Part shown: piece after piece, positions 334 through 13,383 of the stretch | How the letters are laid out: each line of letters begins with the position of its first letter | How positions within the stretch are numbered: the first letter of the stretch is position 1 | Assembly (NCBI GenBank): GCA_029058455.1 | Contig: JAIDXU010000164.1 | Location: forward strand, 1-13,898 | Length of the DNA: 13,898 bases | Direction of reading: 5' to 3' | Source: Paramuribaculum sp. | GTDB lineage: Bacteria; Bacteroidota; Bacteroidia; Bacteroidales; Muribaculaceae | Position numbers and translations under genes: made by a program | Notes under the pieces: model-generated | What the model was told of the DNA's origin: nothing | The model's input: only the letters and a program-made list of their open reading frames with translations | The model's database searches: none

Positions 334-2856
334 ATGAAAAAATTTCTACTCTCAGCCATTTTTTCCTTAGGACTACTTTCGGCGGCCGCTCAGGTTCAGA
401 ATTATGCGCTGGAATTTGATGGCTCCGGCACTGTTGACTGCGGAGCGCTTCCTGCCCTCGATTCCCGTCAGTCATTAGTTATGCAATTTTGGCTTAATCC
501 GTCGGAGTGGACTAAAGGTGCTACTCTGATTTCAAGAGGCGACGGATTTAAAGTGAGCATGGGCGAAGAAGGCACCCTCCTTTTCACTGTAGGCTCAAGC
601 TCGTTTACACAGAATAAAATTCCTGTAGGCGAATGGTCGCTTGTATCATTCAGAATTTCAGATGCCGGTAAGGTATTTATCAACGGAAGCCGCAAAAGTG
701 GCGCTCCCGAGGCTGTTCCCGCTTCCGACGAATCACTTGTGATCGGCGCCGGTTATAAGGGTAAGCTCGACGAGTTGCGTATCTGGGGTAAGGATATAGG
801 CAGCGATTTTAATTATTTCGAACACACTACGCTTAACAAATGGAATCCTAATTTAGACGATCTCCTTGTCTATTATAAGATGGATCAGGAGCTCTGTCCC
901 AATCTTGTTGATTACAGCGAGATTTTCAAAGGCTCAAAGTCAGAATATAACAACCACGGTTCATTCTCTGCTTCGGGTGTGAAGCGTGTGGCTGTCGACA
1001 TTCCCGGACTGCCTTATCTCATCAACGGAGCCTACACCGCCAACGAGCGTTTTTATGACCGCTCTATTCCCCGCGAACAATATCTGCTGTCTAACGACCT
1101 GATTATTCTCGGCATCGAATCGATGTCAGACGGTCATCTCCGTCTCGCCACTCCCAACAATCATGCCACCATCAACGGTGCTAAATGGATGAGCGAGTTT
1201 GAGGGAAGATCAGGTGTAATGTCTTTTGACGGAAACTCAACTCTTGATTGCGGCACCGATATAATGCGCGCTGATGCCCCCGCCTATATGTTTGAGTCGT
1301 GGGTTTATGTTGACGAATGGGTGTCCGACGCATATATATTCCGTAAGGAAACCGACGACTCAAAAAAAGGTTTTTCGATACGTCTCGGCGCCGAAAGCAA
1401 TCATGAAATCATTGTGCGTGTAAATGGCAACGATTATTATAATCAGCGCCAGATGAAAGCGGGGCAGTGGATTCATGTGGCAATCGGTGTGCGCGGCGGT
1501 AGCGTGGGTCATCAGGTGTTCTGGTGGCTTTATGACGGAGCCCGTGAAGGCTCAGGCTCGAGCAAGTGCTCTGAAAGCACCGATTATAAGCCGGTTGGCA
1601 ACAGCAATTGCCACGGTATTATCGGCCAGGGCTTCAAGGGCAAACTCGACGAGTTTGCTATTTGGGATCGCAGCTTCACTGTGAGCGAGGCTTCAAAACA
1701 GCGTCATGGTCTGCCAATGCCCGGTCTCGGCATTACGGTTAATTCCGATGTGCTTCAGAAAGCTAATACCTATCTGAAATTTGATAATCCTGAAAATCCC
1801 GGTTATGATTCACATTCGCAAGATGAGTGGAAGCGCATCATGGAATCGGCCTATGAGGGTCACCGCGGATATTCGATAAGAATATCAGTGAAGAGTCACA
1901 ACGGTTGGGAAACAACAATAGGCAATGCCGCCAAACGTAAAATCTTTGCCGCTGACCTTGCACGTCTCTCGGAAGGTTATGACGGCGTGGAACTTGATCT
2001 CGAATGGATTTATGGTGTTCAGACCAATCTCGGTCTTCTTTCCGATGAGATACGCGCGGCGCTTCCTAAAGATAAGAGCCTCATGATTTCATGCCATAAC
2101 GTGGCTTATCAGTTCCCCAAAAACAAGATGGTCAATTGCGAAGGCTTTACCTTCCAGCAATATGGTCCTCAGATGGAACACTCCACCTATTCCACTTTTG
2201 TCGCCAAAACCAACGCCTTTGTTTCATACGGTTTCCCGAAAGAGAAGATAATCTGCTCTTATGCCACCACAACCTCCAAAGGTTATAAAGGCAACACCGC
2301 TTCGGTTGACATCAAGGGTGTGAAAGACGGATTTATGGAAGACGGATTCGTGCCTCAGGAAGAGGTCGATTATGGCGATCAGGGGGGCTACCGTTTCTAC
2401 TTCGACGGCCCGCTGCAGACCTATAAACGCGCCAAATATGTGAGTGACAATAAACTTGGCGGCATATTCTATTGGGATATGGGCAACGATACCCGTGTGG
2501 AACATCCCTATAATCTTGCCAAATGGTGCAGCTACGGTCTTAATGCCAATGTCGACACTCTTGTAAAGACAGTTGAGGTGCGTCATTTCGATAACTCAGG
2601 TATTTCATCGACTATGGCCGACCGCACCAACCGCAAGATTTCCGTGAGCTATAACTCCGACACTCAGGTTATGAGCGTTATAGACAATTGCGCAGCCGTC
2701 AATCTCACTGTCTATAACCTTTCAGGCTCGGTTGTGGCCGTGTCGCCTGTCAATGACTCCAAGTCGAATCCTGTCAGCCTTGTTGCCGGCCACTATATCG
2801 TAGCCGTAACCGATAAGGACGGTTTTACCCGGAGCACCACCATTATAATTAAATAA
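334..2856 (+). CDS. Secreted GH18-family glycoside hydrolase with two LamG domains and T9SS-like tail
   Basis: This 840-residue protein starts with a Sec signal peptide (residues 1-19, cleavage near AAA-Q). A first LamG/concanavalin-like domain spans about 25-185 (FDGSGTVDCG at 28-37, GKLDELRIW at 143-151). The first GH18 strands appear at about 225-275. A second LamG domain follows at about 290-485 (FDGNSTLDCG at 298-307, GKLDEFAIW at 436-444). The GH18 barrel then resumes at about 495-735. The GH18 active-site strand is DGVELDLE (550-557), with E557 as the expected proton donor and D555 as its partner. FQQY (607-610) and the late-strand IFYW (711-714) fit later barrel strands. The tail (about 770-840) resembles a T9SS sorting domain. 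GH18 enzymes cleave beta-1,4 bonds at GlcNAc in chitin or N-glycan cores, so a chitinase or endo-beta-N-acetylglucosaminidase is likely. The linked SusCD pair supports glycan harvesting at the surface. The motif has E553 where most members have Asp. Confidence 0.87.
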   Translation: MKKFLLSAIFSLGLLSAAAQVQNYALEFDGSGTVDCGALPALDSRQSLVMQFWLNPSEWTKGATLISRGDGFKVSMGEEGTLLFTVGSSSFTQNKIPVGEWSLVSFRISDAGKVFINGSRKSGAPEAVPASDESLVIGAGYKGKLDELRIWGKDIGSDFNYFEHTTLNKWNPNLDDLLVYYKMDQELCPNLVDYSEIFKGSKSEYNNHGSFSASGVKRVAVDIPGLPYLINGAYTANERFYDRSIPREQYLLSNDLIILGIESMSDGHLRLATPNNHATINGAKWMSEFEGRSGVMSFDGNSTLDCGTDIMRADAPAYMFESWVYVDEWVSDAYIFRKETDDSKKGFSIRLGAESNHEIIVRVNGNDYYNQRQMKAGQWIHVAIGVRGGSVGHQVFWWLYDGAREGSGSSKCSESTDYKPVGNSNCHGIIGQGFKGKLDEFAIWDRSFTVSEASKQRHGLPMPGLGITVNSDVLQKANTYLKFDNPENPGYDSHSQDEWKRIMESAYEGHRGYSIRISVKSHNGWETTIGNAAKRKIFAADLARLSEGYDGVELDLEWIYGVQTNLGLLSDEIRAALPKDKSLMISCHNVAYQFPKNKMVNCEGFTFQQYGPQMEHSTYSTFVAKTNAFVSYGFPKEKIICSYATTTSKGYKGNTASVDIKGVKDGFMEDGFVPQEEVDYGDQGGYRFYFDGPLQTYKRAKYVSDNKLGGIFYWDMGNDTRVEHPYNLAKWCSYGLNANVDTLVKTVEVRHFDNSGISSTMADRTNRKISVSYNSDTQVMSVIDNCAAVNLTVYNLSGSVVAVSPVNDSKSNPVSLVAGHYIVAVTDKDGFTRSTTIIIK

Positions 2857-2907
2857 AGACAACCAATCTAAATCATAAACCATAAAAACCAAAAAATCAC
2901 CATCGCA

Positions 2908-3528
2908 ATGAAAAAGTTAGTTTGGGGATTAGGACTCTTGCTTTCGGCCGGCTTGTTCTGGTCATGCGAAGACACCCCTGAAAACCCCGGCGATTTCAAC
3001 GCCAAGGCCGAGCTTACGATGGGCACGCACTTTTGGGCACTTAGCGACCCTTCGCGCACCTATCCGCTTGAGATCGAGACTCGCCGCGACACGGTTTATA
3101 AATACCGTTACACCATCAACGACACGGTGTTTGAGTATTTTAATGACGGTCGTGACAGCACTTATGTTTATGGTCCCGACGGTAAGCCGATCGTAAACGT
3201 AACCGACACATTCTATTACAGCCTGAAAAAAGCCGAACTTGTGGTCATGAAGCCTATCTATCTCGAAAACTACAGTGACACTGTTATCGCTCAGGTATTC
3301 ACCAACTCACGATGGTTGGCAAAACAACCCACTCCTTCGGGATCACAGTGGTTGTTTAACTATAATTCTACCGAATCAGGAGGTGGTGACAGCGAGTTCG
3401 GACTCCGTAATGACCGTTACAGAGGTAAGAACATGCGTGGTCCTATCTATCAGTATGTATTTACTTCGGATAGCATGATTTGCGTACAGATACCTATCTA
3501 TCAAAAGGGTTCTGCCGACTATAACTAA
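2908..3528 (+). CDS. Small BACON-like surface lipoprotein, probable glycan-binding protein of the locus
   Basis: The 206-residue protein has a lipoprotein signal with LFWSC and the lipidated Cys at residue 20. The following residues EDTPE are acidic, as in the Bacteroidetes lipoprotein export signal, so surface display is likely. Residues 61-110 carry a run of DTVY-like units with an 11-residue period (DTVYKY at 61, DTVFEY at 72, DSTYVY at 83, then DTFYYS at 100). Residues about 126-201 (TNSRWLAKQP ... IPIYQKG) resemble a BACON domain, which has a core Trp and ends in a Q-x-G-like strand. The gene sits 51 nt after the GH18 gene and 29 nt before susC, in an A-rich leader without a clear Shine-Dalgarno site. 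Its position and export signal suggest a surface glycan-binding protein, but no binding residues can be identified. The family is not recognised with certainty. Confidence 0.78.
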   Translation: MKKLVWGLGLLLSAGLFWSCEDTPENPGDFNAKAELTMGTHFWALSDPSRTYPLEIETRRDTVYKYRYTINDTVFEYFNDGRDSTYVYGPDGKPIVNVTDTFYYSLKKAELVVMKPIYLENYSDTVIAQVFTNSRWLAKQPTPSGSQWLFNYNSTESGGGDSEFGLRNDRYRGKNMRGPIYQYVFTSDSMICVQIPIYQKGSADYN

Positions 3529-3557
3529 AGATTATCCAATCATCTACACTGCAATCA

Positions 3558-6500
3558 ATGAAAAAGTATATATTGTCGCTGATATGCATCTTTATCGCGG
3601 CTTATGCCATGGCCTTTAATGTAACCGGCGTGGTATATGAGCCGTCAGGCGAAACAGTGATCGGTGCATCAGTGATCGAAAAAGGTAAACCTGCCAACGG
3701 AACGTCGACCAACATCGACGGTGAGTTCAGTCTCAACGTTTCGTCACCCGACGCTACCATTATCGTTTCTTATATCGGTATGGAGACCCAGGAAGTAAAA
3801 CTTCAGGGTCGCAGCAAAATCGAAGTCAAGCTTACTACCGCAGGCGGTATCAACCTTGATGAAGTAGTTATCGTGGGCTATGGTCAGCAGAAGAAAGTCA
3901 ATGCTACCGGTGCCGTAAAGACTATCGACAACAAGGTGCTTGAATCACGTCCTATCTCTAACGCCGTGCAGGGTCTGCAGGGTGCCGTAGCCGGTCTTAA
4001 CATTACCAACGACCGTGGTGGCGCTCCCGGCCAGGGCATGAACATCAACATCCGTGGTGTCGGTAACCTCGGTGACGGTTCAAGCTCATCGCCCCTCATT
4101 CTTATCGACGGCATGGAGGGTGATCTCTCGACTATCAACCCCAACGATATTGAAAATGTGTCAGTGCTCAAAGACGCTGCCGCAGCTTCAATCTATGGTT
4201 CGCGTGCGCCTTTCGGTGTAATTCTCGTAACCACCAAATCAGGTTCGAGCAAAGCTACCACAATCAGCTATTCAGGCAATGTGCGCATGGCTCAGCCTAT
4301 CAATGTGCCTCACATGGTAAACGGCTATGAAGCCGCTCTTATGACCAACGATGCTTACCTTAACTACGGTGGCAATCCTCCTTACGGCAGCGTTCAGATT
4401 CAGAAGATTCTCGACTTTATGGCAGGTCTCAACGAGGGTGTCACCGAGTCTTCATGGGATAAGAACCATTGGTATAAGGATCAGGCCAGCTGGGCTTCGA
4501 CCGACTGGTATGACGTTCACCTGAAGAAACTTGTTGTTTCGCAGGAGCATAATGCCAGCCTTTCGGGCGGTAATGATAAGGTGAACTACTATTTCTCGGG
4601 CAACTATCTTAATCAGAACGGTTTGTTTAAGTATGCCGATGAGAAATACGAGCGTCTCACTCTCACAGGTAAGGTCAACATTACTTTCAACAAGTATGCT
4701 ACCTTCAACTGGACATCGCGTATCATTTCTACCGACAATAAGAAACCTTCCGCACTCAACGACCTGTTCTATCACAACCTCGGTCGTCGTTACATCACTC
4801 TGCCTGTAACTCTGCCCAGCGATTCTCCCGCCGCCGGCACCTACCACTATCAGTCGCTTATTCCCGCTCTGCAGGATGGTGGCGATCAGATTCAGAAAAC
4901 TCAGTCTTTCTATAATCAGGCCTCTCTGGTAGTAACACCTCTCGACCATTGGCAGATTCACGCCGAGATCAACTCGCGTATCGAGAATAATCCCTATACC
5001 CGTCAGTTTAAACCTGTCTATCAGGTTCTCCCCGACGGAAGTACAGAGGCATTCCCGGTGCTCGAAGGTCTGACCGATAAACATTCGGTTAACGACAACG
5101 GTACTTTCAACGTTCAGCCTTCGGCCGGTGAGAACTATTTTGAGCGTCTCGAATCGAGATCCAATTATTTCTCAACCAACTTCTATACCGACTATAACTG
5201 GAAATTCGGCAACAACGAGTTTACTTTCCTTCTCGGTATGCAGTCTGAATACTACCACTATGACCGTCTCCGCGCCGCTTCATGGAACGTAGCTATTCCC
5301 GACACTCCCTTCATTCCCTCGACCGTAGGCGACAAGCAGTCGATGGTATCTGACAAGAAGGGTGAATGGAGTTCACTCGGTTTCTTCGGCCGTATCAACT
5401 ATAACTACGACAGCCGCTATCTGTTTGAGGTCGATCTCCGCACCGACGGTGCAAGCCGTTTCCCCTCTAACAAACGTTGGGGTTGGTTCCCCTCGTTCTC
5501 ATTAGGTTGGAACGTCGCTCAGGAAAAATTCTGGGAGGATCTTTACAAAACTGTCAACCTGCTTAAGGTGCGCGGTTCATACGGTACTCTCGGTAACCAG
5601 AACACCAATTCCTACTATCCCTACTATCAGTCGATGTATACCTCCGGCGGTGACATAATTCTCGGCGGTGCTCAGGCTACAGTTCTTCCGATGTTCTCAC
5701 CCTTCACAACCAATATCACTTGGGAACGCATTGAGAATGTCAACATCGGTCTCGATCTCGGTATGTTTAACAACCGTCTCACCGGTTTGTTTGAATGGTT
5801 CCAGCGCACAACCAAAGACATGGTAGGCCCTGCAAAGGCTCTTGCCGGTGTATTCGGTGCCAATGCTCCCAAGACCAACAACGCCGAGCTCCGCACACGC
5901 GGCTGGGAAGTTGAGCTTGCATGGCGCGACAATATCAACAGAGACTGGAGCTATGGTATCAGCGGTACACTTTCCGACTATAAGACCAAAGTTACCAAAT
6001 ATGACTCGCCCGACAACCGTTTCAGTGAATGGTATCAGGGTAAGGACTATGGTGAAATCTGGGGCTACAAGTGGCTCGGAATCGCTCAGAGCGACGCTGA
6101 AATGCGCGAATATCTCTCAAAAGTCGACCAGTCGGCCATCGGCGATAAATGGGGCGGCGGTGACGTTATGTATCAGGACCTCAACGGTGACGGTCGCGTG
6201 AATGGCGGTTCGGGCACTCTTGATGATCCGGGCGATAAGGTTATTATCGGTAACAATACTCCCCGTTTTGCATATAGCTTCACTCTTGAGGCCAAATGGA
6301 AATTCATCGACTTCCGCGCTTACTTCCAGGGTATCGGCAAGAGAGATTTCATGTTTAGCGGTTCATCACCGTTCTTCGGTCTTGCCGGTGAATGGCAGCG
6401 CTCGCTCTATAAGGAACATCTTGATTATTTCCGTTTCGTAGGTGCTGACCTCGGCGCGAATACCGATGCCTACTATGGCCGTCTGCGTATCGACCACAAC

Positions 6501-6761
6501 AATATTCAGGATTGTGACCACTTCCTTCAGGACGCTTCTTATCTCCGTCTCAAGAACATTCAGATCGGTTTCAGTCTGCCTCAGAACACCCGTCTTGCAA
6601 AATATATCCGCCGTGCGCGTCTGTATGTATCGGGTGAAAACCTCTGGACACATACCAATCTTCGCATCTTCGACCCCGAAGCTATCAACGGTGACTGGGG
6701 TGCCGGTAAGGCTTATCCTCAGTATCGCACATGGTCGATCGGTCTTGAAATGACTTTCTAA
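3558..6761 (+). CDS. SusC/RagA-family TonB-linked outer-membrane transporter
   Basis: The 1067-residue protein is an outer-membrane importer that moves oligosaccharides into the periplasm using TonB energy. The signal peptide covers residues 1-19 (AMA-F). A carboxypeptidase-regulatory-like beta domain follows at about 21-95 (VTGVVYEPSGETVIGASV ... YIGMETQEV). A TonB-box-like segment, DEVVIVGYG, lies at 101-109. The plug spans about 115-230, with the SusC hallmarks LQGAVAGLNI, IRGVGNLG, LILIDGMEGD, NDIENVSVLKDAAAASIYG and GVILVTTK. The rest is a beta-barrel that ends in Phe, as outer-membrane proteins do. There is no extra N-terminal STN signalling domain, so direct control of an anti-sigma factor is not indicated. 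It is followed after 21 nt by susD. Length and domain order are normal for the family. The GH18 partner suggests a GlcNAc-containing cargo, but the sequence does not show the substrate. Confidence 0.97.
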   Translation: MKKYILSLICIFIAAYAMAFNVTGVVYEPSGETVIGASVIEKGKPANGTSTNIDGEFSLNVSSPDATIIVSYIGMETQEVKLQGRSKIEVKLTTAGGINLDEVVIVGYGQQKKVNATGAVKTIDNKVLESRPISNAVQGLQGAVAGLNITNDRGGAPGQGMNINIRGVGNLGDGSSSSPLILIDGMEGDLSTINPNDIENVSVLKDAAAASIYGSRAPFGVILVTTKSGSSKATTISYSGNVRMAQPINVPHMVNGYEAALMTNDAYLNYGGNPPYGSVQIQKILDFMAGLNEGVTESSWDKNHWYKDQASWASTDWYDVHLKKLVVSQEHNASLSGGNDKVNYYFSGNYLNQNGLFKYADEKYERLTLTGKVNITFNKYATFNWTSRIISTDNKKPSALNDLFYHNLGRRYITLPVTLPSDSPAAGTYHYQSLIPALQDGGDQIQKTQSFYNQASLVVTPLDHWQIHAEINSRIENNPYTRQFKPVYQVLPDGSTEAFPVLEGLTDKHSVNDNGTFNVQPSAGENYFERLESRSNYFSTNFYTDYNWKFGNNEFTFLLGMQSEYYHYDRLRAASWNVAIPDTPFIPSTVGDKQSMVSDKKGEWSSLGFFGRINYNYDSRYLFEVDLRTDGASRFPSNKRWGWFPSFSLGWNVAQEKFWEDLYKTVNLLKVRGSYGTLGNQNTNSYYPYYQSMYTSGGDIILGGAQATVLPMFSPFTTNITWERIENVNIGLDLGMFNNRLTGLFEWFQRTTKDMVGPAKALAGVFGANAPKTNNAELRTRGWEVELAWRDNINRDWSYGISGTLSDYKTKVTKYDSPDNRFSEWYQGKDYGEIWGYKWLGIAQSDAEMREYLSKVDQSAIGDKWGGGDVMYQDLNGDGRVNGGSGTLDDPGDKVIIGNNTPRFAYSFTLEAKWKFIDFRAYFQGIGKRDFMFSGSSPFFGLAGEWQRSLYKEHLDYFRFVGADLGANTDAYYGRLRIDHNNIQDCDHFLQDASYLRLKNIQIGFSLPQNTRLAKYIRRARLYVSGENLWTHTNLRIFDPEAINGDWGAGKAYPQYRTWSIGLEMTF

Positions 6762-6782
6762 TCACTATCACAACAGATTCCA

Positions 6783-8690
6783 ATGAAAAAACATATAATT
6801 TTGTCGGCCGTGGCTCTTGTAGCCCTCAGCTCATGCGATGATTTTCTCACTCGCGAGCCTCTCGACTTCGGTAGCGAGGTAGACTACTATGGCTCGGACA
6901 AAGATCTCATGGCCGCTGTTAATGATTTCTATTCAATACTTCCTACCAACAACGATTTCTGGGGTGGTATATACACCAGCGATGTAGTCAGCGACAATCA
7001 GGTATCATCAGGTGCCCAGAATCTGCTCTACATGGGTGATAAGCGCACACCGGCTATGAACAAAGATCAGGGCTGGTGGTTCAGAAACATGCGTGGCATC
7101 AACTTCTTTATCGCAAAAGTTGCCGGCCACGAGTCGGAAATGACCGGTGACCAGTCGTTGGTGAGACATTATCTCGGTGAGGCATATTTCTTCCGTGCCT
7201 ATGCCAACTTCAACCGCTATGTGAGCTATGGTGATACTCCTATCCTCACCGAAGTTCTGCCCGACGATCCCAATGTGCTTGCCGCCGCCTCAAAGCGTCT
7301 TCCCCGCAATATGGTGGCCCGCAACATTATCCAGGATCTCGACAGCGCTGTGAGCATGCTTAAGGATAATGCTCCCGAATCGGGCCGTATAACCTCCTAT
7401 GCAGCTCTCATGCTCAAGTCAAGAGTGGCTCTTTTCGAAGCTACCTGGGAACGCTATCATGCCAATACCGCTTTTGTGCCCGGCAACTCCAAGTGGCCCG
7501 GCAAAGACTGGTGGCCCGACTTCCAGTGGCCCGCAGGAAGCGCTGATGCCGAAATCAACTGGTTCCTCGAACAGGCTATCGATGCTGCCGACAAGGTTGC
7601 ATCTACCCATGCTCTTTCGCCCGACTATATCGGCATGTTTAACAGCATTATTCCTTTTGCCGAAGGTCATGAGGTTATCCTCGCCCGCTACTATATGGAT
7701 GGTGTGAAGGCTCACAGCTGCTCGGCTCTGCTCAAGAGCGGCGGCGGTTGTAACGCTACCCGCGCGCTGGTTAATTCCTATCTCATGCAGAGCGGTCTTC
7801 CCATCTATGCTGACAGTGAATATCAGGGCGATCTTACCTCCTATGAGGAATTTTTGGGTCGTGACCTCCGTCTCCGTCAGTCGGTGCGCGCCGCAGGCGA
7901 ATTTATTGAAGCCATCAAGGGCGCGGATGGTAAATATTATCCCGATACTATTTACTACTATCGTCCGAACATCTGGGTTTCAGGTAACGAAAAAGCTACC
8001 ACCGGCTACGAGCTTGACAAATGGGTGTCGAAGATTCCCGAACAGCGCATACAATATCATTGCACCACCGCCGTGCCTATTTTCCGTGCCGCAGAAGCTT
8101 ACCTCAACTATATCGAGGCTTATTATGAGCGTTACGGCAACCTTGGCGGTAACTGCGACAGATATTGGCGTGCGATACGTAAGCGTGCCGGTGTTGACGA
8201 TGATTATAACAAAACCATCGCAGCTACCGATCTCAGCAAGGAAAATGACCTTGCTGTCTGGTCGCATGGCAAGGAAGTATCTCCTGTGCTCTATAACATA
8301 CGCCGCGAACGTCGCTGCGAGTTTATCGCCGAAGGTCTCCGTCTCAATGACCTGAAACGTTGGCGCTCGCTTGACAAGATGGTCAACTATCAGCCCGAGG
8401 GTATCAACCTGTGGGGTGGTCCTCTCCAGAAGATGTATTCGGAAAAAGAACTCAAATCAGACCTCGTGTCTCAGCCGAGTTCGGGCAACTACATCATGCC
8501 TTTCCGCATCAACTCCACATCTCCGGTTTATGAGGGTTATAACTTCCCCAAAGCCCACTATCTCGAGCCTATACCCATCACCGAGTTCCTGCTCACCACT
8601 ATCGATGGAAAATCGACCCTCTATCAGAATCCGGGATGGCCTGACCGCGTTGACGGTACTGCCGACTATACCGGTTATGACTATGACTGA
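6783..8690 (+). CDS. SusD/RagB-family glycan-binding outer-membrane lipoprotein
   Basis: The 635-residue protein is the lid and binding partner of the SusC transporter encoded immediately upstream. The lipoprotein signal is ALSSC with Cys18 lipidated. It is followed by DDFL, the usual SusD start. Family hallmarks are the helical TPR-like region around residues 127-155 (HYLGEAYFFRAYANF ... YGDTPIL), GRITSYAALMLKSRVALFEATW at about 201-222, and the C-terminal RRERRCEFIAEGLRLNDLKRW. The acidic residues just after Cys18 fit surface display. At 635 residues it is longer than SusD itself, but within the range of this diverse family. The middle region is rich in Trp (for example KWPGKDWWPDFQW at about 237-249), which could contribute to sugar stacking, but binding residues cannot be assigned from sequence alone. 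Confidence 0.96.
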   Translation: MKKHIILSAVALVALSSCDDFLTREPLDFGSEVDYYGSDKDLMAAVNDFYSILPTNNDFWGGIYTSDVVSDNQVSSGAQNLLYMGDKRTPAMNKDQGWWFRNMRGINFFIAKVAGHESEMTGDQSLVRHYLGEAYFFRAYANFNRYVSYGDTPILTEVLPDDPNVLAAASKRLPRNMVARNIIQDLDSAVSMLKDNAPESGRITSYAALMLKSRVALFEATWERYHANTAFVPGNSKWPGKDWWPDFQWPAGSADAEINWFLEQAIDAADKVASTHALSPDYIGMFNSIIPFAEGHEVILARYYMDGVKAHSCSALLKSGGGCNATRALVNSYLMQSGLPIYADSEYQGDLTSYEEFLGRDLRLRQSVRAAGEFIEAIKGADGKYYPDTIYYYRPNIWVSGNEKATTGYELDKWVSKIPEQRIQYHCTTAVPIFRAAEAYLNYIEAYYERYGNLGGNCDRYWRAIRKRAGVDDDYNKTIAATDLSKENDLAVWSHGKEVSPVLYNIRRERRCEFIAEGLRLNDLKRWRSLDKMVNYQPEGINLWGGPLQKMYSEKELKSDLVSQPSSGNYIMPFRINSTSPVYEGYNFPKAHYLEPIPITEFLLTTIDGKSTLYQNPGWPDRVDGTADYTGYDYD

Positions 8691-8902: not shown

Positions 8903-9550
8903 ATGAAAATTACAAGAACATTTTTTTATGCTCCGCTGATGGCGCTCCTGTGCTCATGTGGCGGAAATAATGGCGAGACGGCCGATGTGGCCGATGCGGT
9001 TGCCGATTCAGGCAAAAACGAAGTGGTCGAGGCCATAATGGCGCGCCGCAGCATAAGAGCCTATAAGGATACTCCTGTTGAAAAGGAGAAACTGCAGCTC
9101 ATAGCCGAATGTGGCATCAACGCTCCGAGCGGCATGAATCAGCAGCCGTGGGAGGTGAGAATCGTTAATGACAGCACCTATATCAACGGTATTACAAGTG
9201 TCTTTGCCGAAGCCAATCCAAAGGCGGTTGAGGCTCCCGGATTTAAAAATTTGTTCAGAAACGCTCCTGCCGTAATATTTGTAGCAGCTCCTGACGACGG
9301 CTCAGGCAACCTTGATTGTGGTATGCTTGGCGAAAACATGATGTTGGCAGCCGAGTCGCTTGGCCTCGGCACATGCTGTCTCGGCGGATGTATAAGCTTT
9401 ATCAATTCCTATCCCGAGGCTGCACCCTATCTCGATAAACTGATGATTCCCGACGGTTATACCCTGCTCTATGCAATAGCTGTGGGTTATCCCGACGAGG
9501 CTCCCGAAGCGAAGCCGCGCAATGCCGACAAAGTGAAGTTTATTGACTGA
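8903..9550 (+). CDS. Nitroreductase-family flavoprotein with a lipoprotein signal, first gene of the cob operon
   Basis: The 215-residue protein has a short hydrophobic leader ending in LLCSC. Cys19 is the predicted lipidation site, and residues 20-40 form a low-complexity linker. The rest is one nitroreductase domain: MARRSIRAYKDTPV (46-59) with the FMN-phosphate-contacting Arg/Ser, NAPSGMNQQPWEV (73-85), and LGENMMLAAESLGLGTCCLGG (142-162). Nitroreductases use FMN and NAD(P)H to reduce nitro groups, quinones or other electrophiles. The residues after Cys19 (GGNNGE) lack an early acidic cluster, so a periplasm-facing anchor is more likely than surface display. It is 8 nt from the next gene and shares its promoter with the cobalamin genes. 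BluB, the dimethylbenzimidazole synthase, belongs to the same superfamily, but this sequence has the ordinary nitroreductase motifs and a signal peptide. A BluB role is therefore doubtful and the substrate is unknown. Confidence 0.88.
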   Translation: MKITRTFFYAPLMALLCSCGGNNGETADVADAVADSGKNEVVEAIMARRSIRAYKDTPVEKEKLQLIAECGINAPSGMNQQPWEVRIVNDSTYINGITSVFAEANPKAVEAPGFKNLFRNAPAVIFVAAPDDGSGNLDCGMLGENMMLAAESLGLGTCCLGGCISFINSYPEAAPYLDKLMIPDGYTLLYAIAVGYPDEAPEAKPRNADKVKFID

Positions 9551-9558
9551 CACACCCT

Positions 9559-10467
9559 ATGGCGGGAGTTCTGATAATAGCTGACGGAATGGCTGATGAC
9601 AGCGCCGGAATTGACGGGGCCCTTGCCTCGCTCTCCGAGGCTCATACCCCCGCCATTGATTATATCAGGACTCACGGAAGCACCCTCAGATGTTATTTTA
9701 TAAACTCCGGCGAGAGCGTGGGCAGTGAATATGCCATCGCTTCGATTCTCAAATCACCTGTGCGTCTTGCCCGTGGGCCGCTTGAAGCCTTGGGTCTCGG
9801 ATTGAGATTTACAGATAATTATATGGCAGCAAGGGTTGATCGTGTTGACAGCGCTTGTGCCAAAATTCCGTGGGGTGAAGATATATTGTCGTCACTCCGC
9901 AAGCGCGGAGTGGAGAGCTATCCGCTCGCAACCGGTGGAACTTTAATGATAAAGCCTGATGATATGCCTTCATTGGGCGACTTGCTTGATGAGCTTGGTG
10001 TGGCCCGCTCAGATTTCAGAATATGGGGGGAGGGAAGATGTGTTATTCCTGAGATAATTTCTCAAAGAAGAGGAACTGTGGTTGCCGGTCTGTCTCTGCT
10101 TAAAGGATTGGCCGATGTCGCCGGAATGGACTTCATAAGGCCCGAGGGTGCTGACGGAACAATCACTACCGACTATGCGGCCAAAGGCAGAGCCGCTGTC
10201 TCGCTTCTTGAAAAGGGCGAGGAATTGGTAGTGGTGCATATCGAGGCTCCCGATACCGCTTCCCATCTCAGGTGCCGTGACCTCAAGGTTGAGGCTCTGA
10301 GCCTTATTGACCGTAACATTGTCGGCCCGTTGCTGAATTATGCCCTGTCATGCAGCCAAGAGGTTGAGATAAAGGTGATGAGCGACCATCCTGCTTCTCC
10401 CGTTACAGGCAAGCATATCAACGGCCCGGTGGATTGTTTTACTTTTAATAATATGACAAAACGATGA
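9559..10467 (+). CDS. Shortened cofactor-independent phosphoglycerate mutase/homoserine-kinase-like metalloenzyme in the cob operon
   Basis: The 302-residue protein belongs to the alkaline-phosphatase superfamily and resembles archaeal-type phosphoglycerate mutase (ApgM) and the related proposed homoserine kinases. The expected two-metal site is complete by motif: D9 (IIADGMAD), S56 (VGSEYAIASIL, nucleophile position), D232 and H236 (APDTASH), D276 and H277 (MSDHPASP), and H286 (TGKHINGP). Family core segments ARGPLEALGLGL (71-82), FRIWGEGR (153-160) and LSLLKGLADVAGM (178-190) are present. Typical members are about 400 residues. Here the stretch between GPLEA and IWGEGR is much shorter, so the substrate-capping region is reduced. 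The last four bases overlap cobU (ATGA), which implies translational coupling. A role in cobalamin assembly is likely from context. Options are L-threonine kinase, an alternative phosphatase, or an unrelated phosphotransferase. The specific activity is inference. Confidence 0.82.
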   Translation: MAGVLIIADGMADDSAGIDGALASLSEAHTPAIDYIRTHGSTLRCYFINSGESVGSEYAIASILKSPVRLARGPLEALGLGLRFTDNYMAARVDRVDSACAKIPWGEDILSSLRKRGVESYPLATGGTLMIKPDDMPSLGDLLDELGVARSDFRIWGEGRCVIPEIISQRRGTVVAGLSLLKGLADVAGMDFIRPEGADGTITTDYAAKGRAAVSLLEKGEELVVVHIEAPDTASHLRCRDLKVEALSLIDRNIVGPLLNYALSCSQEVEIKVMSDHPASPVTGKHINGPVDCFTFNNMTKR

Positions 10468-11003
10468 GCGACCCGAAAGTCACGCCTCCGCCGAGGTTAA
10501 TAATGGTTACCGGCGGCCAGCGCAGCGGCAAGAGTCTAAATGCTGAAAAAATAGTGCTGTCGCTCAGCGACAAGCCTCTCTATATAGCCACAGCTATGGT
10601 GCTTGACGACGAGATGGCTTCGCGGGTGGAAAAGCATCGCAGCCGCCGTGGTGAGAATTGGGAGACTTTCGAGGCTCCTTTCAATCCCTCGCTTGCTCCT
10701 GTAGGGGGGCGCACCGTGTTGCTCGATTGCCTTACGATGCTTGCCACAAACTGGTTTTTCAAGCTTGATGAGGATATCGAGGCGGCATATAACGCAGTTG
10801 CCGGAGAGATTGACCATCTTTGTCAATCTGATGCCACCACTATTGTTATCGTGACCAATGAAATCGGACTCGGAGGAGTGAGCGGAGACCGGCTCACAAG
10901 GCGGTTTACCGATCTTCAGGGGCGTCTCAATTCAATGCTGGCTCAGAAAAGCGATGAAGTGATAATGTGTGTTTCATCAATACCTGTAACTATCAAAAAG
11001 TGA
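10464..11003 (+). CDS. cobU: CobU: adenosylcobinamide kinase / adenosylcobinamide-phosphate guanylyltransferase
   Basis: The 179-residue protein phosphorylates the aminopropanol arm of adenosylcobinamide and then transfers GMP from GTP, making adenosyl-GDP-cobinamide. The P-loop GGQRSGKS lies at residues 17-24. H58 in EKHRSRR is the expected guanylylated histidine. D88 ([12 protein letters not shown]) and [10 protein letters not shown] (131-140) are the remaining family motifs. The C-terminal [29 protein letters not shown] is typical. Length is normal for CobU/CobP. The start overlaps the stop of the upstream gene (ATGA at 10464-10467), and its own stop overlaps the cobT start (TGATG at 11001-11005), so translation of the three genes is probably coupled. 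Confidence 0.97.
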
Positions 11004-12046
11004 TGACAATGACCAAATTCAACATACAACGGCCCGACCCGGCTATCGAGGGGGCCGCTATCGACCGAATCAACAATCTTACCAAACCAAAAGGGTCGCT
11101 CGGACGACTGGAGGAGCTGGCTCTGCAGTTGGCTCTCATTCAGCAGACACTCCGTCCCCGGCTGAAAAATCCGCATAATATTCTTTTTGCCGCCGATCAC
11201 GGCATTATTGAAGAAGGTGTGAGCGTGTCGCCCAAAGAGGTGACATGGCAGCAGCTCGGCCATTTCGCAAAAGGGGGCGCGGGTATTAATTTCCTGTGCA
11301 ATCAACATGGTTTTAAACTTGTGCTTGTTGATGCCGGCGTTGATTATGATATACCATCCGGCTCCGGAATTATTGATATGAAGATGGGGCGTGGAACGCG
11401 CAATTTTCTTCATGGCCCGGCTATGACCGTCGATGAGTTTGACGAGTGCCTGAAGCGCGGTGCCCGTGTGGTAGATATGGTGGCTGAGAATGGTTGCAAT
11501 GTGTTGAGCTTCGGTGAGATGGGCAGTGGCAACACGTCGTCGTCATCAATGTGGATGAGTATTCTCACCGGCATACCTATCGAAGAATGTATCGGAGCCG
11601 GTGCAGGACTCGACAATCCCGGTATAGCGCGCAAGCGTGATGTGCTCGGCCGAGCTATGGCCGGTTGCAGCGCAGAGAGTCTTATCGAGAAGCTTGCCTG
11701 GACCGGCGGCTATGAGATGGCTATGGCCGTGGGCGGTATGCTCAGGGCTGCCGAGCTTGGCATGGTGGTGCTTGTCGACGGGTTTATCATGACCGCGTGT
11801 ATTGCTGCGGCTATGGCCATTAATCCCGAGGTGAAACATTATGCCATATTCGGTCATTGCGGAGATGAGTCGGGTCACCGCCGTATGCTTGACGCTATCG
11901 GCGCGAAACCGTTAATCAGTCTCGGCTTGCGACTCGGTGAAGGCTCGGGTGCCGTGTGCGCCTTTCCTATTGTTGATTCGGCAGCCCGCATGATATGCGA
12001 GATGGATACGTTTGCCGATGTCGACGTGACAAAATATTTTGATTGA
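11003..12046 (+). CDS. cobT: CobT: nicotinate-nucleotide:base phosphoribosyltransferase
   Basis: CobT transfers phosphoribose from nicotinate mononucleotide to the lower-ligand base, giving alpha-ribazole 5'-phosphate or a purine analogue. I place the start at ATG 11003, which overlaps the cobU stop (TGATG) and gives 347 residues, close to the 356 of the Salmonella enzyme. ATG 11009 is a near alternative. The frame stays open upstream to an ATG at 10967, but that start would lie inside cobU and add 12 residues unlike the family. Motifs include [17 protein letters not shown] at the N-terminus, [44 protein letters not shown] and [11 protein letters not shown]. The Glu in the last (E313 from this start) aligns with the catalytic Glu (E317 in Salmonella). 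The base used (dimethylbenzimidazole, adenine or other) cannot be read off securely. Confidence 0.96.
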
Positions 12047-12049
12047 GAA

Positions 12050-12829
12050 ATGAAGGAGGCGTTCAACCGGTGGCTTGCCGCCATGATGTTTTTCACCCGT
12101 TTGCCGTGGTGGCGTCTGGGCAATCCGCCTAAGGAATGTTTCAGTCGTGTTGTGGAACTGTGGCCCTACGCCGGTTGGCTTACAGGCGGCGTTACAGCAG
12201 GGTTGATTTGGCTTTTTACCGGTATGGTTCCTCCCTATGTGGCTGTGATTTTGGCGCTGACCGGCAGATTGCTGCTCACCGGTGCGCTTCATGAAGACGG
12301 ACTTGCCGATTTTTGTGACGGTTTTGGCGGCGGAGTGACTCGTGACAGGATTCTTCTCATAATGAAGGATTCACATATCGGCACTTATGGAGTGCTGGGA
12401 CTTGTGATCTACTATCTTCTTGCAGTCGGAGTGCTTGGCGCATTGCCGTTGAGATATGCCTGCCTTGTGGCTTTTGCGGCTGATGGTTGGAGTAAATGCT
12501 GCGCCTCGGAGCTGATTAATTTTCTCGGTTATGCCCGAACTGAGGCTACTGCCAAAAACCGCGTTGTTTATGCCCGCATGTCGGTAACGACTCTATTGGT
12601 GAATATCGTGGGAGGACTGGTTCCGCTGGTTATTTTAATTAGTGAGGGCGGGGCGCTTGCTTTCTCGGCTTTAGCTCCGATAGTTGTCGTTTCGCTCGGC
12701 ATTTGGTTCTTAAAGAAGAAAATCGGGGGATATACGGGCGATTGTTGCGGAGCGCTGTTTCTCATCTGTGAGCTGGCCATGTGGCTCACAGCGTTGATAA
12801 TTTGGCGCGATATAGCCCTTAATTTCTGA
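12050..12829 (+). CDS. cobS: CobS: cobalamin-5'-phosphate synthase (adenosylcobinamide-GDP ribazoletransferase)
   Basis: The 259-residue integral membrane protein joins adenosyl-GDP-cobinamide to alpha-ribazole phosphate, releasing GMP and making adenosylcobalamin phosphate in the inner membrane. Diagnostic motifs are FFTRLPWW (14-21), the metal-binding GALHEDGLADFCDGFGGG at about 78-95, IMKDSHIGTYGVLGL at about 103-117, and KIGGYTGDCCGALFLICEL near the C-terminus. Several hydrophobic segments fit a polytopic membrane protein. It starts three bases after the cobT stop. An AAGGAGG string lies just inside the gene (12053-12059). The next in-frame ATG (12083) would remove the start of the conserved region and is too far from that string, so I keep the 12050 start. 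Length is normal. Confidence 0.96.
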   Translation: MKEAFNRWLAAMMFFTRLPWWRLGNPPKECFSRVVELWPYAGWLTGGVTAGLIWLFTGMVPPYVAVILALTGRLLLTGALHEDGLADFCDGFGGGVTRDRILLIMKDSHIGTYGVLGLVIYYLLAVGVLGALPLRYACLVAFAADGWSKCCASELINFLGYARTEATAKNRVVYARMSVTTLLVNIVGGLVPLVILISEGGALAFSALAPIVVVSLGIWFLKKKIGGYTGDCCGALFLICELAMWLTALIIWRDIALNF

Positions 12830-12837
12830 GATAGCCT

Positions 12838-13383
12838 ATGAGAATTGTTATGGTGAGACACACGGCGGTTGATGTGCCCAAAGGAGTGTGTTACGGACGC
12901 ACAGATGTGGGCCTCGCCGATGATTTCGATGCTGAGGCCGCGAAAATAGGTCGTAAGCTTGATGAGATGGTTAAGGAGCGCGGAGAGTTTGACCTCGCAG
13001 TTACAAGTCCGGCAACGAGGTGTGTCAAGCTTGCCGAAGCGTGTGGCTATGGCGAGGCTTTGCGCGATGAACGGCTATTGGAGCTGAATTTCGGCGAATG
13101 GGAAATGAAACGATATGATGAAATCACCGATCCGGTGATATGGAAATGGTATGACGACTGGCAGCATGTTGTGCCGACAGGAGGAGAGTCGTTTGAGCAG
13201 CAGACACGCAGGGTGAGCCGGGCATTGGAGGAGTATGTCAACGCCGGTATAGGTAGCCTTCTGATGTTTGCGCACGGAGGAATTGCCATGCAGCTGTTGC
13301 TGCTTGGCCGACAGGTTTCAACGGCTGAGGAAGCGGCGGCTGCCCAGCCCTCCTACGGGGGTATGATAGAGATTGAGATTTAA
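12838..13383 (+). CDS. cobC: CobC-like histidine phosphatase (alpha-ribazole phosphatase)
   Basis: The 181-residue protein belongs to the histidine phosphatase superfamily and should remove the 5'-phosphate from adenosylcobalamin phosphate or alpha-ribazole phosphate, the last step of nucleotide-loop assembly. The phosphate pocket is visible: R7 and the phospho-acceptor H8 (MVRHTAV), R61 (SPATRC), E82 (LLELNFGEWE) as the likely acid, and H146 (FAHGG). The usual RHG triad reads RHT here, so the Gly after His is replaced. The CYGRTDVGL segment (18-26) fits CobC-type members rather than glycolytic mutases. It lies 8 nt after cobS and is the last gene of the operon. The assignment rests on fold motifs plus operon context. 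Histidine phosphatases have broad specificities. Confidence 0.88.
   Translation: MRIVMVRHTAVDVPKGVCYGRTDVGLADDFDAEAAKIGRKLDEMVKERGEFDLAVTSPATRCVKLAEACGYGEALRDERLLELNFGEWEMKRYDEITDPVIWKWYDDWQHVVPTGGESFEQQTRRVSRALEEYVNAGIGSLLMFAHGGIAMQLLLLGRQVSTAEEAAAAQPSYGGMIEIEI

Follow-up and report, generated by a model that had tools for sequence, protein, structure and literature searches.

The window, by which we mean the whole 13,898-nucleotide stretch of Paramuribaculum DNA analysed here, carries a B12 operon with the gene order apgM-like, cobU, cobT, cobS and cobC. The stop codon of the apgM-like gene overlaps the start of cobU in an ATGA, cobU in turn overlaps cobT, and the remaining junctions measure 3 bases (cobT to cobS) and 8 bases (cobS to cobC). 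A nitroreductase-family gene ends just 5' of the apgM-like gene and is perhaps the first gene of its transcript. No Rfam family, B12 riboswitch included, was found in the window at its own threshold. The features are as follows.

8903..9550, + strand: nitroreductase-family gene with a lipoprotein-like start, ending 8 bp 5' of the candidate
9559..10467, + strand: cap-reduced ApgM-like metalloenzyme, 302 aa; candidate L-threonine (O-3) phosphotransferase
9583..9585, + strand: Asp9 codon, presumed metal ligand position, placed by alignment conservation
9724..9726, + strand: Ser56 codon, presumed nucleophile position
9793..9795, + strand: Gly79 codon; this residue, with two others, distinguishes cob-linked from thr-operon ApgMs
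9832..10026, + strand: reduced cap insert, Arg92 to Trp156, 63 residues
10252..10266, + strand: Asp232-x-x-Ser235-His236; metal ligands, with Ser235 as a cob-linked signature
10384..10416, + strand: Asp276-His277 ... Gly284-x-His286; metal ligands, with Gly284 in place of the Arg/Lys usual in the thr-operon type
10464..11003, + strand: cobU, cobinamide kinase/guanylyltransferase; its ATGA overlap with the candidate's stop lies at 10464
11003..12046, + strand: cobT; the ATG at 11003 is the chosen start and overlaps the cobU stop
12050..12829, + strand: cobS
12838..13383, + strand: cobC, alpha-ribazole phosphatase-like (150.9 bits against a cut-off of 162.9)

Positions 334-8690, 5' of the B12 operon, hold a GH18-like protein with laminin-G-like domains, a small lipoprotein-like ORF, a SusC-like ORF recognised by eye and a SusD-family gene, and represent an ordinary polysaccharide-use locus.

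The window protein and its active site

The earlier note had described a complete alkaline-phosphatase-type metal site with a nucleophile serine, in a protein of about 300 rather than about 400 residues that overlaps cobU inside a cobalamin operon, and each of these points holds. All seven positions that we take to be the metal ligands and nucleophile are present (D9, S56, D232, H236, D276, H277 and H286); Asp9 is assumed to bind metal by homology to the alkaline-phosphatase superfamily, and Ser56 presumably occupies the nucleophile position. The reduced length is accompanied by a cap insert half as long as that of the thr-operon type (63 residues versus a median of 126). A predicted model, which is confident and compact, has the ApgM fold.

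The protein scores above the Pfam gathering cut-off for the Metalloenzyme family of the alkaline phosphatase superfamily (PF01676; 51.1 bits versus 24.3). The comparison with the ApgM and proposed homoserine kinase families that the earlier note had suggested places it below both NCBIfam cut-offs (TIGR00306, 155.7 versus 320 bits; TIGR02535 or ThrB2, 133.8 versus 446.3 bits). No GHMP family is among its Pfam and NCBIfam matches with E up to 1. Among solved sequences, archaeal phosphoglycerate mutases come closest (2zkt, 5.6e-16); the protein of that entry, Pyrococcus horikoshii PH0037, differs in having a 412-residue chain with a full cap, and was deposited as a phosphoglycerate mutase. Only three close relatives were found, and these keep the catalytic positions at 72-84% identity. 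In a collection of genome contigs, the protein matched one distant Halodesulfovibrio locus, where no match to cob reference proteins was seen.

ApgM-like genes in the B12 clusters of related genomes

Two sets of genomes were surveyed: 148 relatives, and 397 genomes of the family (Muribaculaceae, a name borne by some of the relatives) searched with a profile of cob-linked proteins. An ApgM profile matched 60 of the 148, five of them only by weak matches in frames of 509-519 aa, which is the size of the other mutase in the window's own genome (G000). The common ApgM type is about 400 residues long; of the 30 top-scoring loci (L003-L032), 27 have ThrA and/or ThrC next to the gene. Another type, about 347 residues in length, is found within B12 clusters. 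In L038 and L041, apgM lies between btuFCD-like genes and cbiHC, cbiET, cbiGF and cbiJD; L044 and L096 carry apgM-cobQ-cobD-cbiB; and in L042 apgM is arranged head to head with cobU. The window arrangement, apgM-cobU-T-S-C, recurs in two other genomes, G261 and G448 (loci L101 and L102), where apgM is directly 5' of cobU-cobT-cobS-cobC; both score low with the cob-linked profile.

That profile matched 110 of the 397 family genomes at 1e-25. Ten genomes exceed 370 bits, and all five that are new among them (G211, G418, G339, G384 and G275) carry the gene in a B12 cluster, with two further ORFs between apgM and cbiHC in G384. G426 has an apgM fragment at a contig edge followed by cbiHC. Thus, the conserved linkage to cob genes by which the earlier note proposed to judge its idea is evident in 13 genomes, which together have at least 14 loci, arranged in four ways, with an ApgM-like gene inside or beside B12 genes. 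The inspection of gene surroundings covered 48 of the 110 family genomes with an ApgM match, so more linked cases are possible. The 13 linked genomes were defined in part by this linkage and are not independent of one another.

Several other ApgM-like genes are of note. G211 has a second copy of its B12 operon in which the ApgM gene carries an internal deletion (L103, 6933-7523). Two ApgMs of 339-368 aa with a TGxH motif like that of the cob type (L097, 8079-9185; L098, 7352-8371) adjoin neither ThrA, ThrC nor cob genes, and their genomes have B12 clusters elsewhere and ThrC. Three thrA-apgM pairs have a shortened ApgM (360-369 aa) and no adjoining ThrC (L034, 6181-7281; L035, 1297-2406; L036, 6972-8054).

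Profile searches separate two cap-reduced types. Among the best 120 of 179 clusters, the longer type accounts for 72 (304-368 residues, at least 367 bits), and the next step falls to at most 311 bits with mostly about 400 residues. Among the best 120 of 641 clusters, the type of the window, G261 and G448 accounts for 39 (268-341 residues, one partial) together with the window's four, all at 248 bits or more, and the next match has at most 221 bits. Among these clusters, gene surroundings are known for the loci described above. A quick tree, of the kind called for in the earlier note, recovers the longer type as one clade (support 96) and places the window clade beside G261 and G448 with weak support (81). 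The window clade sits on a long stem (3.12 changes per column). An AU test does not reject one common origin for the cob-linked ApgMs as a whole (p 0.389).

Three residues distinguish the cob-linked proteins from the thr-operon type and outgroup. Gly284 occurs in all 80 proteins of the longer cob-linked type that have a residue at this position, in 6/6 of the other cob-linked subfamily and in 2/30 of the thr-operon and outgroup proteins. The corresponding counts are 81/81, 6/6 and 3/30 for Gly79, and 78/81, 6/6 and 3/30 for Ser235. Forty further short-type proteins agree (Gly79 in 40, Ser235 in 40, and Gly284 in 39 of the 39 with a residue there). The separation is weaker in 29 other full-length ApgMs, of which 6 have Gly79, 11 have Ser235 and 3 have Gly284. 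The three residues are common to both cob-linked subfamilies despite only about 30% identity between them. At the nucleophile position, 68 of 81 proteins of the longer type (the main cob clade) have Thr, and the window clade has Ser. What is new here is this pair of subfamilies, both with a reduced cap and with the residue switch in common.

Pathway genes in linked and unlinked genomes

A CbiB match was obtained in 92 of the 397 family genomes, 89 of them over the cut-off. All 13 linked genomes have one, versus 29 of the 97 other ApgM-bearing genomes, a comparison that is partly circular because linkage defined the 13. CbiB falls under the cut-off in two linked genomes, as a broken fragment in G012 and as two pieces on two contigs in G031. 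In G012, stop codons break the reading frames of both CbiB and CobU, and a search found no CobD; apgM itself is intact. The interrupted genes (L058, about 6880-7730) adjoin an intact cbi operon that includes apgM, which reflects either decay or an assembly error.

ThrC over the cut-off occurs in 0/13 linked genomes versus 26/29 of the other genomes that have both ApgM and a CbiB match; G005, G006 and G014 are the three without it (Fisher p = 2e-8, which is not a strict probability given that the genomes are related). Four of the linked genomes are 94-99% complete. Divergent ThrC homologues below the cut-off are present in G027 (151 bits) and G031 (112 bits), and the best ThrC match in G000, which is 79.75% complete, has 46.3 bits. 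Classical ThrB over the cut-off was found in 13 of the 148 relatives, none of them from the window's family. G005 and G006 (99% complete) carry thrA-apgM, have no ThrC match above 90 bits and keep cobQ-cobD-cbiB. Several same-genus genomes have divergent ThrC homologues (about 145-225 bits) without ApgM and without ThrB over the cut-off.

The earlier note had seen no PduX. A PduX fragment matched 11 NCBIfam families, none of them a PduX model, and real PduX sequences were therefore used instead. The resulting profile recovered both control records at more than 550 bits and had no match in two sets of 22 and 31 genomes, which comprise 52 distinct genomes with a CbiB match (47 from the window's family and 5 from its order), G000 included.

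Co-occurrence with CobD, which the earlier note had proposed to survey, is partial. Of the 13 linked genomes, 9 show CobD next to CbiB, not always on apgM's contig. The window's own genome is fragmentary, its CbiB is at a contig end, and it has no CobD match at 1e-30. The expectation that every CbiB-bearing relative carries an ApgM-like gene was rejected, since no ApgM-like match at 1e-25 was obtained in 50 of the 92 CbiB-bearing family genomes, 39 of these 50 being from a single genus (g17). The CbiB regions of 28 of these 50 genomes (18 from g17) contain no ApgM-like ORF among the ORFs identified, some ORFs there being unlabelled. PduX was likewise not found in the 12 of the 50 that were searched, and the threonine-phosphate step must therefore be met otherwise in those 12 genomes.

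An HAD-IB phosphatase-like ORF of 171-214 aa, weakly SerB/ThrH-like, lies near cob genes in 5 of the 28 genomes when cobU regions are counted as well:

L110, 4309-4953: HAD-IB gene, directly upstream of cobU
L109, 15369-15992: HAD-IB gene, directly upstream of cobU
L077, 6115-6741: HAD-IB gene, directly upstream of cobU
L113, 10105-10728: HAD-IB gene
L125, 9061-9576: HAD-IB-like gene with only 28% identity and the domain start missing

Models for ThrH (phosphoserine phosphatase/homoserine phosphotransferase) match these genes weakly. On sequence grounds, the HAD-IB gene may be another threonine phosphotransferase that replaces the ApgM-like protein at the same step. Alternatively, its location near cob genes could hint that the step is a phosphatase reaction.

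A candidate threonine phosphotransferase and its alternatives

PduX and BluE, the L-threonine kinases that act at the step proposed here, are GHMP kinases, a family unrelated to that of the window protein. Both are demonstrated threonine kinases according to PMC6249242, in which aminopropanol was measured after co-expression with CobD in an E. coli gldA mutant. PduX is not named in the main text of PMC6593275. Given the position of the ApgM-like gene beside cobD/cbiB or cobU, the failure to find PduX and ThrC, and the presence of CobC, threonine phosphorylation would be its simplest role. With moderate confidence, we propose that the window protein is a phosphotransferase of the alkaline-phosphatase superfamily and supplies CobD with L-threonine-O-3-phosphate. 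Ser56, which is Thr in many relatives, would accept a phosphoryl group from ATP, PEP or some other phosphate ester and pass it on to the threonine hydroxyl. The product would serve CobD, the threonine-phosphate decarboxylase, after which CbiB would join aminopropanol phosphate to cobyric acid. A switch of acceptor, with threonine taking the place of homoserine or phosphoglycerate, could be reflected in the shorter cap and in Gly284 replacing Arg/Lys, together with Gly79 and Ser235. The term 'kinase' may be too narrow for the candidate, since the phosphate donor may be one other than ATP.

Dehalobacter, which we take to belong to another phylum than the window organism, provides a precedent. 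In Dehalobacter restrictus, the TIGR02535 protein Dehre_1608 (CbiU), encoded in a corrinoid operon, was proposed as an L-threonine kinase in 2015 (PMC4285132), and the idea is therefore not new for an ApgM-type protein. The two cases share an ApgM/TIGR02535-type gene in a corrinoid operon, the failure to find pduX (by profile in G000, an incomplete genome) and the proposed role. CbiU differs by its description there as carrying TIGR02535; the window protein misses the TIGR02535 cut-off by a wide margin, and its cap is only half as long as usual. Word matching of the open-access literature found only PMC4285132 pairing CbiU with corrinoid, and neither an experimental test of the role nor a report from this bacterial family.

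The nearest studied family is ThrB2 (TIGR02535; BT2402), which (PMC7311316, PMC9026213) shares with the window protein the fold family, the metal-site positions and the conserved Arg72, Glu76, Arg92, Trp156 and Lys243. It differs in its length of about 400 aa, its thrA-apgM-thrC operons and its residues, which are mostly Arg/Lys at position 284, Ser/Ala at 79 and Gly at 235. Across 300 gut genomes, ThrB2 has been predicted to be a homoserine kinase (PMC9026213). According to PMC7311316, mutants of BT2402, which is of the thr-operon type, require threonine in minimal medium, BT2402 did not complement an E. coli thrB mutant, and TIGRFAM curators suggested PEP or a similar donor for the homoserine case. 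The failed complementation leaves the homoserine kinase role of the family itself unproven.

The alkaline-phosphatase superfamily is rich in phosphatases, and the gene could instead encode a nucleotide-loop phosphatase with alpha-ribazole-5'-phosphate or adenosylcobalamin-5'-phosphate as its substrate, either alongside CobC or in its place. The HAD-IB phosphatase-like gene near cob in five ApgM-negative genomes would fit such a shared phosphatase step. However, 11 of the 13 linked genomes, window included, show a CobC-like gene, although not always on apgM's contig (none was seen in G012, and the G426 region fell outside the survey). A second CobC is unlikely for this reason, in keeping with the earlier note's view that a CobC-like enzyme in the operon makes a phosphatase less needed, and we regard this explanation as unlikely. 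An enzyme of the same branch with another acceptor, such as serine (for norcobamide), aminopropanol or cobinamide, would be expected at the same genomic position, and the acceptor is not readable from sequence. Nevertheless, cobinamide is already covered by CobU, and where CobD stands beside CbiB its substrate must be made; we consider this possibility quite unlikely.

A homoserine kinase that merely moved next to B12 genes would suit the nearest studied family and its ThrA and/or ThrC neighbours at 27 of 30 top-scoring loci. This role is very unlikely for want of ThrC over the cut-off in any of the 13 linked genomes, including the four nearly complete ones, and it is further disfavoured by the score far under the TIGR02535 cut-off and the loss of Arg/Lys284. 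Least probable of all is that the gene encodes a phosphoglycerate mutase or is a duplicate in decay with no role in B12 metabolism, which could account for the reduced length, the long stem and the small number of close relatives. Against it, G000 has a separate phosphoglycerate mutase (TIGR01307, 668.8 bits versus a cut-off of 330.65), the catalytic positions are kept in the relatives, the model is confident and compact, and reduced caps recur in 39 other clusters.

A threonine-phosphorylating enzyme, as put forward in the earlier note, thus appears to be the best-fitting role, given recurrent cob linkage and the failure to find PduX and ThrC. The proposal is weakened by the 50 of 92 CbiB genomes without the gene at 1e-25 and by the CobD not seen in the window's own genome, and it is not the first of its kind. 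A broader scenario is more tentative, and we lean somewhat against it: bacteria of this family may have turned an ApgM/homoserine-kinase-like enzyme into dedicated B12 threonine phosphotransferases, comprising one subfamily of about 347 aa and another of about 300-330 aa that lies 5' of cobU where seen, both with a reduced cap and the Gly79/Ser235/Gly284 switch, and an HAD-IB (SerB/ThrH-like) protein may replace them in related genomes. If true, three unrelated folds (GHMP, alkaline phosphatase and HAD) would serve one B12 step. With a recurrent operon-linked candidate and no ThrC found in its genomes, an old guess is now directly testable, and the three residues and the cap deletion offer handles on substrate choice. 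A confirmed role would help to predict which gut bacteria make B12.
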